Part shown: piece after piece, positions 5,080 to 44,466 of the stretch
How positions within the stretch are numbered: the stretch's first letter is position 1
Layout: every line of letters starts with the position of its first letter
Assembly: GCA_017744605.1 (NCBI GenBank)
Contig: JAGIAZ010000018.1
Span: 1-64,000 of the forward strand
Direction: 5' to 3'
Origin: Sphingobium sp.
GTDB lineage: Bacteria; Pseudomonadota; Alphaproteobacteria; Sphingomonadales; Sphingomonadaceae
DNA length: 64,000 bases
Made by a program: the position numbers and the translations under genes
The notes under the pieces: model-generated
What the model saw: the letters and a program-made list of their open reading frames with translations, nothing else
The model's database searches: none
What the model was told of the DNA's origin: nothing

Positions 5080-6098
5080 GGGCTCGTCTCGCAACGGCAT
5101 TGGGCGCCATTCTCGTCGCCACGGCCGGCAGCGCGCTCGCGCAGGCGCCGACGGCCGCCCCCGCTGGGCAGAAGCCGATCCTTCGTCCCTTCGGATCGGT
5201 GCCGCTCATGGTGCCGCCGTCTTCGGATGCGCCCCGGGATTGCGACGACGCCTGTCTCAAGGGGCTCGCGCAGCAATATATGGACGCGCTGGTCAAGCAG
5301 GATGGCTCGAAGCTGCCCTGGGCCGATCGGGTCCGTTATGCCGAGAATGGCGTCACCATCATGGTCTCGGACGGCACCTGGGCGACGGCGACCGCCAAAG
5401 GCGCATCGCCGCTGATCGTGGCGGATGCCAAGGCCGGCAAGGCGGTCTGGATCGGCTCGGTCGACGAGCATGGCCAGCCCGGCTTCTATGCCATCGAGCT
5501 GACGGCGCGGGGCGGCAGGATCGTCAGCGTGCAGGCAACCATCCGGCGCCAGCAAGGGCGGCCGCCTTTCGGCGACCCCATCGCCTTCACGCATGACCCG
5601 GCCTTTTCGGCCACGGTCGCCAAGGGCAAGGAGACGCCCCGTGCGATCATGTCCGGCCTCGTCCAGGCCTATTTCGAAGCGCAGGGCGGCAAGAGTAAGG
5701 CGCCTGCCTTCGGCAAGGGTTGCGTATTGATCGAAAATGGCGTGCCGATGACGGGCAACCTGCCCGCGGCCAAGGGCGAGAGCGGCGATTGCGCGACAAG
5801 CTTCTCGCGCGGTCTGTTCGGCGAGTTCGAAGCTATCCGCCGCCGTATCGTTGCCTATGACGACGCGCGCGGGTTGGTGGTGGTCAGCGGCGTGCGCGAC
5901 CTTCCCGGCGCGACCACCAGCTTCACGGGCAGCGACGGCAAGGGCTACAAGTCCGAGGCCGACTATCCGCGCAGCTTCGGCTTCGTGACCGTGTTCAAGA
6001 TCGAGGGCAACGCGATCGCGCGGGTCGAGAGCATCGCCACCGAATTGCCTTATCTCATGCCGCCGCCCTGGCAGGAGCCGAGAGGACCAAGACCATGA
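5076..6098 (+). CDS. Exported DUF8021-like protein 2
   Basis: A 340-residue paralogue of the preceding gene. A signal peptide (ends SALAQ, about residue 23) is followed by a proline-rich linker. The first half contains RDCDDACLKGLAQQYMDAL and YAENG; the second contains GLVQAYFEAQ, KGCVLIENG and DCATSF, then a VVVSGV strand equivalent to VVVASGF of its neighbour. Conserved Cys-Asp-x-x-Cys and ENG motifs define the family here. It is coupled by four-base overlaps to the genes on both sides. The function is unknown; a periplasmic location is inferred from the signal sequence. Confidence 0.82.
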   Translation: MRARLATALGAILVATAGSALAQAPTAAPAGQKPILRPFGSVPLMVPPSSDAPRDCDDACLKGLAQQYMDALVKQDGSKLPWADRVRYAENGVTIMVSDGTWATATAKGASPLIVADAKAGKAVWIGSVDEHGQPGFYAIELTARGGRIVSVQATIRRQQGRPPFGDPIAFTHDPAFSATVAKGKETPRAIMSGLVQAYFEAQGGKSKAPAFGKGCVLIENGVPMTGNLPAAKGESGDCATSFSRGLFGEFEAIRRRIVAYDDARGLVVVSGVRDLPGATTSFTGSDGKGYKSEADYPRSFGFVTVFKIEGNAIARVESIATELPYLMPPPWQEPRGPRP

Positions 6099-7036
6099 AC
6101 ATCAGGACCGTCGCCCTTGTCGGAACCGTAATCGCCCTCGGCCTCGCGAGCGCATCCGCCTTTGCCCGGGACGTGACCATCGACGACACGAAGGTTTTCA
6201 CCGAGAGCATCAGCGCCGATGCGGCGGGCAATCTCTATGCCGGCAGCACCAAGGGCATCGTCTTCCGCGCGACGCCGGGCAGCGACAAGGCGGTCGCCTG
6301 GATCAAGCCGGACGACAGCAACAAGATTAGGATGCTGCTCGGCGTGGTTGCGCATGATGCGTCCAACACGCTCTGGGTCTGCTCCATTCCCGGTTTCGGC
6401 GGGCCGCCGACGCCCGGCGCGGACTCCGCCGCCGTGGCCTTCGATCTCAAGACCGGCGCTTTCAAGGCGCGCTATGTGCTGCCCGGCCCGAATGCGACCT
6501 GCAACGACATCACCGTCAGCCAACAAGGCAAGGTCTACATCGCGGAGACATCGGGCGGCCGCATCTTCAGCATCGCGCCCGATGCCAGAGACGTGAAGCT
6601 CGAGGTGCAGGATGCGCAGCTCAACGGCATAGACGGCATCGCGTTTACGGCGGACAATATTCTTTATGCCAACAACACCCGCGCCAACACCTTCTTCCGG
6701 GTCAATCGCGACGGCAATGGCAATTATCAGAGCCTGACCAGGCTCAATGTCTCGATGGAGTTCAAGGGCCCGGATGGCCTCAGGCTCTACAAGGGCAACC
6801 AGCTGCTCCAGGCCGAGACCGGCAACAACCGCATCGCGCTGCTGACCATCAATGGCGACAATGTCGACGTGAAGCCCCTTGGCGGCAGCTTCCAGGGGCC
6901 GGCCGCGGTCACCCATATCGGCGACACCGCCTATTCGGTCAGCGGGATGATCAACTATATGTTCGATCCCAAGCTCAAGGACCAGGATCCCGGTCCCTTC
7001 ATCATGAAAGCCGTGCCGATCGGAGCCGCGAAATGA
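6095..7036 (+). CDS. Exported SMP-30/lactonase-like beta-propeller
   Basis: A 313-residue protein with a signal peptide (about residues 1-24, ending SAFA). Repeated strand patterns such as ISADAAGNLYAGSTKG, CNDITVSQQGKVYIAE and GIDGIAFTADNILYAN fit a six-bladed propeller of the SMP-30/gluconolactonase/LRE class, whose members are often calcium-dependent lactonases or esterases. The catalytic metal ligands cannot be fixed by eye, so activity is uncertain. The gene sits between the DUF8021-like and SnoaL-like genes with four-base overlaps on both sides, and probably acts in the periplasm on the same substrate as its neighbours. Confidence 0.78.
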   Translation: MNIRTVALVGTVIALGLASASAFARDVTIDDTKVFTESISADAAGNLYAGSTKGIVFRATPGSDKAVAWIKPDDSNKIRMLLGVVAHDASNTLWVCSIPGFGGPPTPGADSAAVAFDLKTGAFKARYVLPGPNATCNDITVSQQGKVYIAETSGGRIFSIAPDARDVKLEVQDAQLNGIDGIAFTADNILYANNTRANTFFRVNRDGNGNYQSLTRLNVSMEFKGPDGLRLYKGNQLLQAETGNNRIALLTINGDNVDVKPLGGSFQGPAAVTHIGDTAYSVSGMINYMFDPKLKDQDPGPFIMKAVPIGAAK

Positions 7037-7869
7037 GCGGCCGCCTCCTCTCCCGTCATCCCGGCGAAGGCCGGGCTCCACATGCAGGAGTCTCGGACAT
7101 GGCGCCCATGGCTTCCGGCTTTTGCCGGAATGACGGTGGGTTGTGGGGTCGCAGGGCGCGCTGCGTGGCCGGTGCCTTCGCCGCCGCATTGCTGCTGTCC
7201 GCCATGCCGGCGCCCGCCGCTGCGCCGGGCATCGACCAGGAGATCGACGCGCTCACCCGGCGCGTCGAGAAGCTGGAGGGCGCGCGCGCGGTCAAGAAGC
7301 TGCAGCGCGCCTTCGGTTTCTATGTCGACCGCGGCCTGTGGGACGAAGCGGCGGACCTCTTCGCCGACAATGGCACGATCGAGATCGGCATGGACGGCGT
7401 CTATGTCGGCAAGGTGCGCATCAAGGATTATCTCAAGCGCCTGCACGGCAACCAGGATGGCCTGATCTACGGCCAGCTCAACGAGTGGGTGACGCTCCAG
7501 CCGGTGGTCGATGTCGCGCCCGACGGGCTCAGCGCCAAGGGCCGCTGGCGCGATCTCGGCATGCTCGGCCAGTACAAGAAGCACGCCGAGTGGCGCGACG
7601 GCACCTATGAGAATGATTATGTGAAGGAAGGCGGCGTCTGGAAGATCAAGGCGCTCCATCTCTATGTCAATTTCGTGGCGCCCTATGAGAAGGGCTGGGC
7701 GCGGCTGAAGCCGGGCGAGGGGCTCGCCGCCAGCCAGACCTCCAAGGACTTCCCGCCCGACCGGCCGCCGACCGCGCCTTATGCGAGCTATCCCGATCCC
7801 GAGGTGGCGCCGTTCCATGGCCCCAATCCGGTGACCGGCAAACCGGTCGTGCTGGGAGGTGCGAAATGA
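7033..7869 (+). CDS. Exported SnoaL-like (NTF2-fold) protein 1
   Basis: A 278-residue protein. After an unusual N-terminal stretch (residues 1-43) comes a hydrophobic signal segment ending APAAA near residue 64. The mature part starts with a short coiled segment (DALTRRVEKLEG) and then has the SnoaL/NTF2 pattern AFGFYVDRGLWDEAADLFADNG. SnoaL-fold enzymes include cyclases, dehydratases, isomerases and C-C lyases, so the reaction cannot be named. The N-terminal stretch is encoded by a REP-type palindrome at 7053-7136. Four-base overlaps on both sides support the start at 7033. Confidence 0.8.
   Translation: MSGRLLSRHPGEGRAPHAGVSDMAPMASGFCRNDGGLWGRRARCVAGAFAAALLLSAMPAPAAAPGIDQEIDALTRRVEKLEGARAVKKLQRAFGFYVDRGLWDEAADLFADNGTIEIGMDGVYVGKVRIKDYLKRLHGNQDGLIYGQLNEWVTLQPVVDVAPDGLSAKGRWRDLGMLGQYKKHAEWRDGTYENDYVKEGGVWKIKALHLYVNFVAPYEKGWARLKPGEGLAASQTSKDFPPDRPPTAPYASYPDPEVAPFHGPNPVTGKPVVLGGAK
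7053..7136. repeat. REPIN-like repeat inside a signal-peptide region
   Basis: Two REP-like hairpins in inverted orientation: left arm 7053-7080 begins CCGTCATCCCGGCGAAGG and right arm 7109-7136 ends TTTTGCCGGAATGACGG. The arms are reverse complements with about seven mismatches in 28 bases. The pattern matches the widespread family whose ends read CGTCATTCCCGCGAAAGCGGG. It lies in frame inside the first codons of the SnoaL-like gene and is apparently translated. Confidence 0.75.
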
Positions 7870-8651
7870 TGCGAGATCTTGCCCCATCCACTTCCGTTCG
7901 GCCTGTTCGAGCTAGGCGTCTCGCTCGAACAGGGCGAACGGTGTTTTTGGGATTGGTGTTTGCCTTGCTGGCAACTTCCGCACCTTCATTCGCCCAAGCC
8001 GACCTCGCCGGCCGTGTCGCCGCCTACAAGCAGCGCGTGCAGCTGCTCGAGGACCAGGACGCGATCGAGAACCTCCAGGCCACCTACGGCTATTATTTCG
8101 ACAAGGGCCTCTGGGACCAGGCCGCCGGCCTGTTCACCAGGACCGGCAGCTTCGAATATGGCCAGCGCGGCGTCTATATCGGCCCGGCGCGCATCCAGAA
8201 GGCGATGCTGCTGTTCGGGCCGCAGGGGCTCGCCGCCGGCCATCTCAACACGCACATGATGCTGCAGCCCTATATCGTCGTCGCCAGGGACGGGAGAACG
8301 GCGACGGCGCGCTGGCAGGGCATGATGATGCTCGCCCAGCCGGGACAGAACGGCGTCTGGGGCGTCGGCATCACCAATGCCGATTATGTGAAGGAGGCGG
8401 GCGTCTGGAAGATTGCCAGCCTGCATTTCTTCGTGACCGCGCAGACCGACTATGATCTCGGCTTCACCAAGTCGGCGCTGCCGATCGAGGGTCCGAGCGC
8501 GGTCTTCCCGCCCGACAGGCCGCCGACGGTGCAATATCGCTCCTTCCCGGGCGCCTATATTCCGCCGTTCAATTTCGATCATCCGGTGACGGGCAAGCCC
8601 TTGAAGGACATTGCGCAGCCTGGCGACAGCGTCACGGGGAGGGGCAAGTGA
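7866..8651 (+). CDS. Exported SnoaL-like (NTF2-fold) protein 2
   Basis: A 261-residue protein. A basic N-terminal region containing RARRLARTGRT is followed by a hydrophobic signal core and cleavage near SFAQA (about residue 43). The mature protein has a coiled segment (YKQRVQLLEDQDAIENLQ) and the fold pattern TYGYYFDKGLWDQAAGLFTRTG, close to its neighbours. The basic n-region is encoded by a 19-bp inverted repeat (7894-7941). A GTG at 7941 just after the repeat is an alternative start, but ATG 7866 overlaps the upstream stop by four bases. The reaction is unknown; the protein is probably periplasmic. Confidence 0.8.
   Translation: MMRDLAPSTSVRPVRARRLARTGRTVFLGLVFALLATSAPSFAQADLAGRVAAYKQRVQLLEDQDAIENLQATYGYYFDKGLWDQAAGLFTRTGSFEYGQRGVYIGPARIQKAMLLFGPQGLAAGHLNTHMMLQPYIVVARDGRTATARWQGMMMLAQPGQNGVWGVGITNADYVKEAGVWKIASLHFFVTAQTDYDLGFTKSALPIEGPSAVFPPDRPPTVQYRSFPGAYIPPFNFDHPVTGKPLKDIAQPGDSVTGRGK
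7894..7941. repeat. Inverted repeat inside a signal-peptide region
   Basis: The left arm CCGTTCGGCCTGTTCGAGC (7894-7912) and right arm GCTCGAACAGGGCGAACGG (7923-7941) are reverse complements with one mismatch in 19 bases, separated by 10 bases. The sequence resembles the sphingomonad palindrome family with CCGTTCG...CGAACGG ends. It is in frame near the start of the second SnoaL-like gene. Confidence 0.8.
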
Positions 8652-8653
8652 TT

Positions 8654-9502
8654 ATGAAGACTCCCTTCAAATTCAAAACCGTTCGCCCTTCGACATTCGA
8701 GCGAGCCACGCGTCTCGCTCGCACAATACGAACGGCGTTTTTTGCAGCTGGGTTGGTCTTGAGTGCGCCCGCTGTCGCCCAACCGAGCGCCGCCGAGAAG
8801 CTCGATGCCCTCGACACCCGCATCACGCGGCTCGAGGACCAGAACCAGATCGAGCGCCTCCAGCGACTCTACGGCTATTTCGTCGACAAGGGCCAGTGGA
8901 CCCAGCTCTCCGAACTGTTCGCGGACGACGCCACGCTGGAGATCGGCGGCAAGGGGCTCTTCCTGGGCAAGAAGCGCGTGCTCGAATATATGCAGACCGC
9001 CTTCGGGCCGGACGGCGTCCGCGAGGGCGGCCTTGCCAACCACATGCAGTTCCAGCCGATCGCCGACGTCTCGCCGGACGGCAAGACCGGCTGGATTCGC
9101 TCGCGCGCCTGGGTGATGTCGAACGGCGGCTGGGGCCTGCCGCTCTATGAGGACGAGTTCGTCAAGGAGAACGGCACCTGGAAGTTCAAGCGCGAGTCCG
9201 GGCCCTTCACCATGTATTCGAGCTGGGAAGGCTGGGGGAAGAACGCCCTCAACAACACCTGGCCGGACAAGTTCAATCCGCCGCCGGACCTGCCGCCGTC
9301 GACCGTCTACCTGACCTATCCGGCCTATTACATCATCCCGTTCCACTATCCGAACCCGGTGACCGGCAAGGTATTCCAGCCGGATATGGACGAAGTGGGC
9401 GCCTATGCTGCGCCCCCGGGCACGCCGCTGCAGGAAAAGTGGCGTAAGACCGGCCGTCTCGTATACGGCTCCCAGCCGATCTACACGCCGCCAAAGGACT
9501 GA
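8654..9502 (+). CDS. Exported SnoaL-like (NTF2-fold) protein 3
   Basis: A 282-residue protein. ATG 8654 is chosen because GGGGAGGGGC lies 8-9 bases upstream; GTG 8648 is an alternative. The basic N-terminus has TVRPSTFERATRLARTIRT, encoded by an imperfect palindrome at 8679-8735, then a signal core ending AVAQP near residue 42. The mature part has TRITRLEDQNQIERLQ and LYGYFVDKGQWTQLSELFADD, as in the two preceding paralogues. It has an extra C-terminal 30-40 residues. It lies six bases before the PQQ dehydrogenase gene. The reaction is unknown. Confidence 0.8.
   Translation: MKTPFKFKTVRPSTFERATRLARTIRTAFFAAGLVLSAPAVAQPSAAEKLDALDTRITRLEDQNQIERLQRLYGYFVDKGQWTQLSELFADDATLEIGGKGLFLGKKRVLEYMQTAFGPDGVREGGLANHMQFQPIADVSPDGKTGWIRSRAWVMSNGGWGLPLYEDEFVKENGTWKFKRESGPFTMYSSWEGWGKNALNNTWPDKFNPPPDLPPSTVYLTYPAYYIIPFHYPNPVTGKVFQPDMDEVGAYAAPPGTPLQEKWRKTGRLVYGSQPIYTPPKD
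8679..8735. repeat. Degenerate inverted repeat inside a signal-peptide region
   Basis: Outer arms CCGTTCG (8679-8685) and CGAACGG (8729-8735) and inner arms CGAGCGAG (8698-8705) and CTCGCTCG (8714-8721) form an interrupted palindrome. It resembles the element at 7894-7941 in its ends and in the encoded peptide (VRP...RLART.RT). It lies in frame at the start of the third SnoaL-like gene. Confidence 0.65.
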
Positions 9503-9507
9503 AGCGA

Positions 9508-11643
9508 ATGAGAAACTGGTTGCGCCCTGTCGCGCTTGCGGCTGCCATCGTCACGTCGCTCGCGGGCCTCGGTCTTGCCAGCGCGGATGCCGGCAAGGGC
9601 CCGGCATGGATCGACGGCGCACGCATCGCCAAGCAGGCGACGGACGGCACGGACTGGTTGAGCGACGGGCGCGGCTATGATGCCCAGCGTTATTCACCGC
9701 TCACGCAGATCAACGCGGCGAACGTCAAGCAGCTGGGCATCGCCTGGTATGACGAGCTCGACACGATGCGGGGCGTGGAGGCGACGCCGCTCTATGCCGA
9801 CGGCGTGCTCTACAACACGCTGCCGTGGAACATCACCATGGCCTATGACGCGCGCACCGGTAAGCGCCTGTGGACCTACGACCCCAAGGTGCCGCGCGAA
9901 TATGGCCGCTATGCGTGCTGCGAGCCTGTGGCGCGAGGCCTGGCGCTGTGGAAGGGCAAGGTCATCATCGCGACGCTGGATGGCCGCGTCATCGCTCTGG
10001 ACGCCCGCACCGGCAAGGAGGTCTGGGTCCAGCAGGCTTTCACCCATGACATGCCCTATTCGATCACGGGCGCCCCAAGAGTCTATGACGGCAAGGTCGT
10101 GATCGGCAATTCGGGCGGCGATCTCGGCGTGCGCGGCTTCGTCATCGCTTATGATGCGGAGACCGGCAAGAAGGCGTGGAAATTCTTCCTGACGCCCAAT
10201 CCGCAGGACAAGCCGGACGGCGAGGCCTCGGACTCGATTCTGGCGACGATCCGCAAGACCTGGAACGACGACGGCCTGTGGAAGACCCTGGGCGGCGGCG
10301 CGAATCCATGGGATTCGATCAGCTACGATCCCAAGCTCAACCTCGTCTATATCGGCACCGGCAATGGCAGCTCCAACAGCTGGCACTATCGCTCGGGCAG
10401 CAAGGGCGACAATCTCTTCATCTGCTCCATCGTCGCCATCGATGCGACCACCGGCCAATATAAATGGCATTATCAGGAAGTGCCCGAGGAAGACTGGGAC
10501 TATACCTGCACCAGCTCGATCACGGTCGCGACGCTGCCGATCGACGGCAAGAACCGCCGCGTGGTCATGCATGCGCCCAAGAACGGCTATTTCTACGTGC
10601 TCGACGCGGCAACCGGCCAGTTCATCTCGGCCAAGCCCTATGTGCCGGTGAACTGGGGCACGGTCGATCCCAAGACGGGCAAGGCGACGGTCAATCCGGG
10701 CATGCACTATGGCACCGATCCAGTCCTGCTGATGCCAGGCCCCGGCGGCGGTCACAACTGGTTTCCCATGGGCTATTCGCCACGCACGAAGCTCGCTTAT
10801 TTCCCGACCTTCGAGAGCGGCTTCGCCTATGCCTATGATCCCAACTGGACGCCCAAGCCCTTCCGCTCGAACAGCGGCTGGGGCGGCTTCTCGGGTGACG
10901 CGCTCAAGAAGCGCGCCGAGATCCAGAAGCAGATCGATGCGATGGAGAAGACTTTCCTCGTCGCCTGGGATCCGGTGAAGCAGAAGGCTGCCTGGCGGGT
11001 GCAGCTGCCGCGCCATGGCAATGGCGGCGTGATGATCACCGGCAGCGACCTCGTCTTCGAGGGCACCACCAAGCAGACCTTCGCCGCGTTCGACGCGCGG
11101 ACCGGCAAGCTGCTCTGGGAGATGCCGGTGCAGAGCGCGCCGGTCGCCGGGCCGATCACCTATATGCTTGACGGCGTCCAATATATCGCGGTCAACGCCG
11201 GCTGGGGCGGCGGCGCGGCGCAGATCGAGCGCGGCTCGGGCATCGAACTGCCGCGCGCCTCGGCCCGGCTGCTCGTCTTCAAGCTCGGCGGCAAGCTGCA
11301 ACTGCCCCCGCTCAAGGCGGAGGAGAAGGCGCCCGATCCGCCGCCGGTGACGGCCAGCGAGGCGACCATCGCCAGGGGTGCGCAGCTCTTCGGCGACACC
11401 TGCTCGCGCTGCCACGGCCAGCAGGCCATTGGCGGGGTCAAGGACCTGCGCAAGATGACCCGCGAGACGCACGGCAAGTTCAACGACATCGTGCTGAAGG
11501 GCATCTACCAGGACAAGGGCATGGCGAGCTTCGCCGACCTGCTGAAGCCCGAGGATGCCGACGCGATCCACGGCTATCTCATCGCACGCGCCAACGAGGA
11601 TTGGGGGCGCTCGACGGAGAAGACCGAAGCGGGGCCGCATTAA
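9508..11643 (+). CDS. PQQ-dependent quinohaemoprotein alcohol dehydrogenase 1
   Basis: A 711-residue exported enzyme with a signal peptide (about residues 1-27), an eight-bladed PQQ propeller and a C-terminal cytochrome c domain (CSRCHG, Cys632-Cys635-His636). The adjacent cysteines of the active-site disulfide are Cys137-Cys138 (YACCEP). The catalytic aspartate is Asp331 in EEDWDYT; the residue two further on is Thr333, not Asp, which points to a calcium rather than lanthanide enzyme. It oxidises an alcohol in the periplasm and passes electrons to the respiratory chain. It is the last catalytic gene of the exported operon and is close to the second dehydrogenase at 12820-14949. Confidence 0.93.
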   Translation: MRNWLRPVALAAAIVTSLAGLGLASADAGKGPAWIDGARIAKQATDGTDWLSDGRGYDAQRYSPLTQINAANVKQLGIAWYDELDTMRGVEATPLYADGVLYNTLPWNITMAYDARTGKRLWTYDPKVPREYGRYACCEPVARGLALWKGKVIIATLDGRVIALDARTGKEVWVQQAFTHDMPYSITGAPRVYDGKVVIGNSGGDLGVRGFVIAYDAETGKKAWKFFLTPNPQDKPDGEASDSILATIRKTWNDDGLWKTLGGGANPWDSISYDPKLNLVYIGTGNGSSNSWHYRSGSKGDNLFICSIVAIDATTGQYKWHYQEVPEEDWDYTCTSSITVATLPIDGKNRRVVMHAPKNGYFYVLDAATGQFISAKPYVPVNWGTVDPKTGKATVNPGMHYGTDPVLLMPGPGGGHNWFPMGYSPRTKLAYFPTFESGFAYAYDPNWTPKPFRSNSGWGGFSGDALKKRAEIQKQIDAMEKTFLVAWDPVKQKAAWRVQLPRHGNGGVMITGSDLVFEGTTKQTFAAFDARTGKLLWEMPVQSAPVAGPITYMLDGVQYIAVNAGWGGGAAQIERGSGIELPRASARLLVFKLGGKLQLPPLKAEEKAPDPPPVTASEATIARGAQLFGDTCSRCHGQQAIGGVKDLRKMTRETHGKFNDIVLKGIYQDKGMASFADLLKPEDADAIHGYLIARANEDWGRSTEKTEAGPH

Positions 11644-44382: not shown

Positions 44383-44466
44383 AGCGCCAACGCCGTCATT
44401 CCCGCGCAGTCCGGCTATCTCAGCACCAAGAAGATCCTCTCCCCAAATTGTTCTGTGACGGTGCCG

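Follow-up and report, generated by a model that had tools for sequence, protein, structure and literature searches.

Repetitive extragenic palindromes (REP) and REPINs are short, dispersed palindromes that lie mostly outside genes and are associated with RAYT transposases, and REPs are usually regarded as extragenic sequence. A different situation was reportedly described by Ogata et al. in 2000 and 2002 for Rickettsia, where palindromic elements (RPE) are said to reside in protein-coding genes. The locus analyzed here carries REP-type palindromes within the signal-peptide coding regions of three consecutive, translationally coupled genes of a sphingomonad. We explain them, with high confidence, as insertions that lie behind the three start codons, have kept the frame and are tolerated there, the locus being a local case of a wider sphingomonad process.

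The host genome is a Sphingobium-type MAG (3.37 Mb, 86 contigs, 81% complete, 5.3% contamination), and the window, i.e. the whole stretch of 64,000 nucleotides that was analyzed, forms the start of its contig C9. The operon, encoded entirely on the + strand, has the order SGL - S1 - S2 - S3 - PQQ dehydrogenase: its upstream member is an SMP-30/gluconolactonase-like gene (SGL, 6095..7036; Pfam SGL, 1.7e-8), followed by three genes for exported proteins (S1, 7033..7869; S2, 7866..8651; S3, 8648..9502) and, next in the 3' direction, by a PQQ-dependent dehydrogenase with a cytochrome c domain (9508..11643; Pfam PQQ, 1.4e-77). The preliminary description of this DNA had addressed S1 to S3 as tandem SnoaL-like paralogues, and all three indeed match Pfam SnoaL_4 (PF13577) with 85.9, 98, and 76.9 bits versus a cut-off of 24 (E-values of 3e-24, 5.4e-28, and 1.7e-21). 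Judged by eye from the translations, their putative Sec signal peptides appear to have a hydrophobic core and an AXA-type end after the n-region. The S1 start overlaps the SGL stop and the S2 start the S1 stop in an ATGA, and the S3 start overlaps the S2 stop in a GTGA at 8648, with a second S3 start (ATG) at 8654. In named records, the S2 gene is found mostly in Sphingobium plus other sphingomonads. At G000:C66:134514-136436 (L047, L059), three SnoaL-like matches lie within one open frame of 731 aa, which looks as if a tandem trio of the S1-S3 type had been fused into a single protein; long frames holding several SnoaL-like matches are also present in other genomes listed.

The palindromes reported for S1 (7053..7136), S2 (7894..7941), and S3 (8679..8735) are present at these positions, each in the n-region of its gene. 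Scored against 200 dinucleotide shuffles, they fold with z values of -5.5 (S1; 0/200 shuffles as good), -7.0 (S2; 0/200), and -3.2 (S3; 2/200). The repeat search found the S2 palindrome alone, as a gapless repeat with 22-nt arms (91%), and a single mismatch interrupts the pairing of its outermost 19 nt, in agreement with the 19-bp arms assigned to it before. The S3 palindrome is weak as a hairpin but nevertheless a family copy, since its core CGAGCCACGCGTCTCG occurs at six other places of the genome with 0 mismatches and the element shares a longer identity with a copy at C16; its hairpin has decayed while the frame stayed open (-20 versus -36 kcal/mol for S2). We also concur that the S1 palindrome is of another family than those of S2 and S3: it belongs to the dispersed family A (GTCATCCCGGCGAAGGCCGG), the other two to the likewise dispersed family B, read as VRPVRARRLARTGRT in S2 and as VRPSTFERATRLARTIRT in S3. 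In our own reading, the latter two represent two family B subtypes, S2 resembling the symmetric C4 copies and S3 being longer and asymmetric, with CCTTCGACATTCGAGCGAGCC and a decayed right end. This difference favors separate insertions, and gene conversion as a shared source of the repeats in S2 and S3 was dropped because the subtypes look different. The hairpins of all three genes start 20-31 nt 3' of the start codon, clear of the Shine-Dalgarno (SD) sequence. A terminator-like site at 7921-7937 carries no signal for a terminator role, as three such sites were found where shuffled versions of the region give 1.4 (sd 1.2). Elsewhere in the window, at 44395-44414, there is a half site resembling family A with two mismatches.

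A comparison with palindrome-free versions of the operon had been proposed as a check, and such versions turned out to prevail: 60 of the 65 orthologous gene copies compared (22 genomes, window included) are devoid of such an element. The only two filled copies outside the window, S2 of L072 and S3 of L249, carry other REPs (family C by sequence) in the same place. The distinction between empty and filled sites was based on leader length and reading of the sequence, the leader up to the first conserved motif measuring 30-54 aa without a REP (65 aa in L070 S1) and 60-80 aa with one; for S1 of L067, L070, and L247, the script had picked a start too far upstream. The fold score over the 65 copies does not separate the window genes (z of -1.8, -2.4, and -1.1) from REP-free ones, L039 S1 reaching -5.0 with a short ordinary leader. 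The first in-frame start and the upstream stop overlap by -4 in 54 of 57 measured cases and by -1 in three, with eight S1 rows unmeasurable; by gene, the -4 overlap applies to 14/14 measurable S1 rows (of 22), 19/22 S2 rows (-1 in three), and 21/21 S3 rows. The early starts of S1 and S2, for which the four-base overlaps had been invoked, are thus backed by conservation in orthologues, and so is that of S3. From empty sites combined with a conserved overlapping start it follows that the repeats entered between the start codon and the hydrophobic core; on the strength of these sequence comparisons, the repeats in S1-S3 evidently arose by insertion, and did so repeatedly.

Pattern searches of the host genome revealed families A, B, and C as palindromes dispersed in many copies, in the order of tens. 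Our census comprises 56 rows, namely 41 places of families A, A', and B plus 15 clear family C palindromes; it is partial and pattern-based, with some weak matches unopened, one C2 composite element occupying two rows and C3:13064 being a chance match within a gene. Another 16 family C pattern matches came without a clear palindrome. Only five rows are clearly coding (S1, S2, S3, the GlyS beta subunit, and DnaE), and five more are ambiguous N-terminal extensions (C8:16553, C27:20179, C66:165493, C10:12171, and C77:42496), in keeping with the earlier remark that elements of this kind usually lie between genes. Dispersal and a mostly extragenic location, as expected of the REP type, were both found, families A and B occurring between genes as well. 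An automatic 'coding' label for L019, L084, L029, and L141 was discarded, the interval merely touching the start codon (the first three by reading, L141 by coordinates). Three of the five coding REPs of the host genome sit in one operon, and tolerance alone does not explain this clustering. A search for Y1_Tnp gave no match in the 81% complete MAG and a match in 10 of 20 relatives searched; the means by which the palindromes are mobilized is something we infer. On plasmids, 13 Sphingobium records match family C; the best-matching place in each is free of annotated features in a gene table that is incomplete. No match was obtained for the S3 element.

The most extensive record of REP uptake comes from GlyS. 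The beta subunit of the host contains an in-frame family A REP at a site where a solved chain (7yse_C) has five residues (378 to 384), as opposed to 371 to 411 in the host protein; the insert folds with a z of -4.8 as a whole and of -1.75 for the piece holding one arm. For the best 30 Sphingobium GlyS loci, inserts reached z <= -2.4 in 25/30, versus 0/30 for a second variable region of the gene. This second region, located after residue 515 (L176-L205), lacks strong folding and differs considerably from species to species, both in length and in sequence. The REP site could be read in 93 of 94 Sphingobium genomes, i.e. in all with a match, and was REP-derived in 50 (34 called by z <= -2.5, 10 by motif with weaker folding, and six by eye, two of them cut by a contig end), short and empty in 35 (29 by length, six by eye), and of some other kind in eight. 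In genus g12, 39 genomes had a match, of which the best 30 were read: 11 sites contained a REP (nine by folding, two by motif), 18 were empty, and one was of another kind. Another 27 loci were the best-scoring ones among 196 genomes of the order; a REP peptide pattern applies to 25 of them and to the other two none does, these assignments using peptide patterns alone and a score ranking that, with a filled query, favors filled sites. A one-contig genome, G072, likewise has a REP in frame in GlyS. A quick GlyS tree was built from 78 rows, with 27 of its 75 inner branches open, our own peptide patterns as labels, and nine empty-site rows left out for want of excised flanks. On it, the nine labels need 50 changes versus a shuffled mean of 50.8 (as low in 84/200), and solely the empty state is clustered, with six changes versus 8.6 (as low in 1/500). 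Judging from this tree, the REP family at the GlyS site does not follow the gene tree, and sister rows often differ. In L205, a palindrome with a GAGTCACGCGCCTC core is found at the DNA level inside another REP of the GlyS site, which is a nested insertion keeping the frame; L322 has the same peptide.

Coding REPs were encountered in further genes. An in-frame REP of 28 bp is present in host DnaE; L217 shares a decayed copy, and L233 holds another REP at this site. Of 30 DnaE loci read, the other 27 carry either no insert at all or one that is not a REP. Scanning the 94 genomes of the genus for the succession of SD, ATG, and REP yielded 227 matches versus 12 for the reversed pattern (table summed). 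In 25 of 30 loci opened, the frame stops within or near the REP; the ATG frame runs through in 5/30, no more often than the two shifted frames (13/60). Three of these five are real, namely L347, an N-terminal REP in a SufS-like protein (named by reading), and L350 and L372, which represent one gene. Of the other two, L355 by reading contains no REP, and L367 scores as non-coding. Among 20 more regions, chosen for recurring upstream sequence, three stop after 44-53 codons (L418-L420) and 17 run through. The latter, picked from the pattern listing, are an exported protein with a REP leader in nine genomes (L401-L409) and the type II secretion pseudopilin GspG (T2SSG), whose leader is largely REP-derived in eight Sphingobium genomes (L410-L417). 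The exported protein reads like an amidohydrolase, with no Pfam match over the 230 aa read. Its leader in L402 and L403 contains, in our own reading, a family B-like palindrome nested in a family C element.

We envisage that three translationally coupled genes each received a short dispersed palindrome of the REP type a few codons 3' of the start codon. Most likely this happened three times independently, given two families and two subtypes of family B. REPs would land, or persist, in the neighborhood of gene boundaries, and in an operon without intergenic space the least harmful place there would be the signal n-region, a variable segment that is cut off following export. Copies with an open frame would survive and be translated as long n-regions, selection on the downstream protein keeping the frame. 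The same process may operate more widely, REPs repeatedly entering coding sequence in frame at tolerant places, such as cleaved leaders and the internal GlyS loop, where they would be replaced and decay while the frame stays.

The notion that signal n-regions tolerate insertion, put forward in the preliminary description, is supported by the other REPs in L072 S2 and L249 S3 and by the REP-derived leaders in other genes. The same description had gone further, suggesting that the palindromes may have been co-opted as signal sequence or as mRNA hairpins tuning translation of each coupled gene. In this view, they would have been recruited as basic n-regions, or the hairpins would act by retarding elongation at an early stage. 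Regarding charge, S2 uses its most basic frame (net +6), S3 its most basic forward frame (+4), and L072 S2 its most basic stop-free frame (+7), whereas S1 (net 0) and L249 S3 (net +2) are each read in the stop-free frame that is least basic. Selection for a basic frame hence fits three of the five n-region elements, fails for two and was rejected. Regarding a hairpin function, the decay of the S3 hairpin with its frame intact argues against it, and 60 of 65 orthologous copies manage without any element. Persistence of the REP leader in the exported protein (nine genomes) and GspG (eight genomes) would be more in favor of a benefit: dN/dS values of the leaders, which include non-REP residues, amount to 0.57 and 0.61, respectively, versus 0.16 and 0.03 in the remainder of the sequence read. 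Being below 1, they make some function possible; being near 0.6, they point to tolerance under weak constraint, with frames kept. Taken together, we consider co-option unlikely and prefer tolerance.

That the repeats are translated had been called probable before. We find this firm for S2 and S3 and less so for S1, and regard translation of all three as very probable. The early starts of S2 and S3 are preceded by SD sequences, both 5' of the REP (GGGAGG at 7854..7859 and GGGGAGGGG at 8636..8644), with duplex energies of -11.5 kcal/mol each, in comparison with -6.1 or weaker for the listed later in-frame starts, and peptides starting 3' of the repeat would lack the basic n-region. For S1, the duplex is -5.8 at 7033 versus -6.9 at ATG 7099, which lies inside the element behind an SD-like sequence, and an in-frame TTG at 7141 would be followed by a normal-looking signal peptide. 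Codon scoring, moreover, places the coding start 3' of each repeat, as would be expected if every gene started downstream and the elements were effectively intergenic. This reading is nonetheless very unlikely in view of the overlapping starts kept in orthologues, the poor SD sequences at later S2 and S3 starts, and the internal in-frame REPs of GlyS and DnaE, which must be translated. Finally, an assembly error or chance palindromes, conceivable in a MAG with the above contamination level, can practically be dismissed, since the palindromes belong to two dispersed families and keep open frames, and since in-frame REPs also exist in other genomes, including the one-contig genome.

Insertion into S1-S3 behind their start codons, with translation and tolerance, thus remains our preferred reading, and the wider picture it fits into appears reasonably probable to us: among sphingomonads, REPs of several families would enter coding sequence in frame in a group-wide, ongoing manner and supply new peptide, as cleaved leaders (SnoaL trio, exported protein, GspG prepilin) and as a loop of GlyS beta, where one REP would be swapped for another faster than species diverge. 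If true, REPs would be a standing source of protein sequence outside the Rickettsiales. In the genomes studied here, they have been turned into protein time and again, at particular positions that are empty in some relatives and filled in others. GlyS lends itself, as a natural experiment, to studying the uptake, retention, and exchange of foreign palindromes by a protein, and the cleavage of leaders offers a simple explanation for their accommodation in exported proteins. Compared with REP/REPIN systems, the elements are similarly short, dispersed, and mostly extragenic, with tens of copies in the host genome, but differ in that several copies are translated and that no Y1 transposase was found in the host MAG. 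A likeness may also exist to Neisseria dRS3-type and alphaproteobacterial intergenic repeats, in that family A appears to resemble the GTCATTCCCGCGAAAGCGGGAATGAC type. The closer parallel is with the RPE, which likewise are dispersed palindromes, some of them intergenic and others inserted in frame into genes unrelated to one another, whose products tolerate the additional peptide. We observed in-frame insertion in unrelated genes with intact proteins (S1-S3, GlyS, and DnaE, each with empty-site orthologues) and intergenic copies of the same family, and the nested palindrome in the GlyS insert of L205 is a further point in common. Unlike the RPE, the present elements occur in sphingomonads rather than Rickettsiales, belong to several families, turn over by family at the GlyS site, and make use of cleaved leaders; the likeness proposed is one in the way of working.
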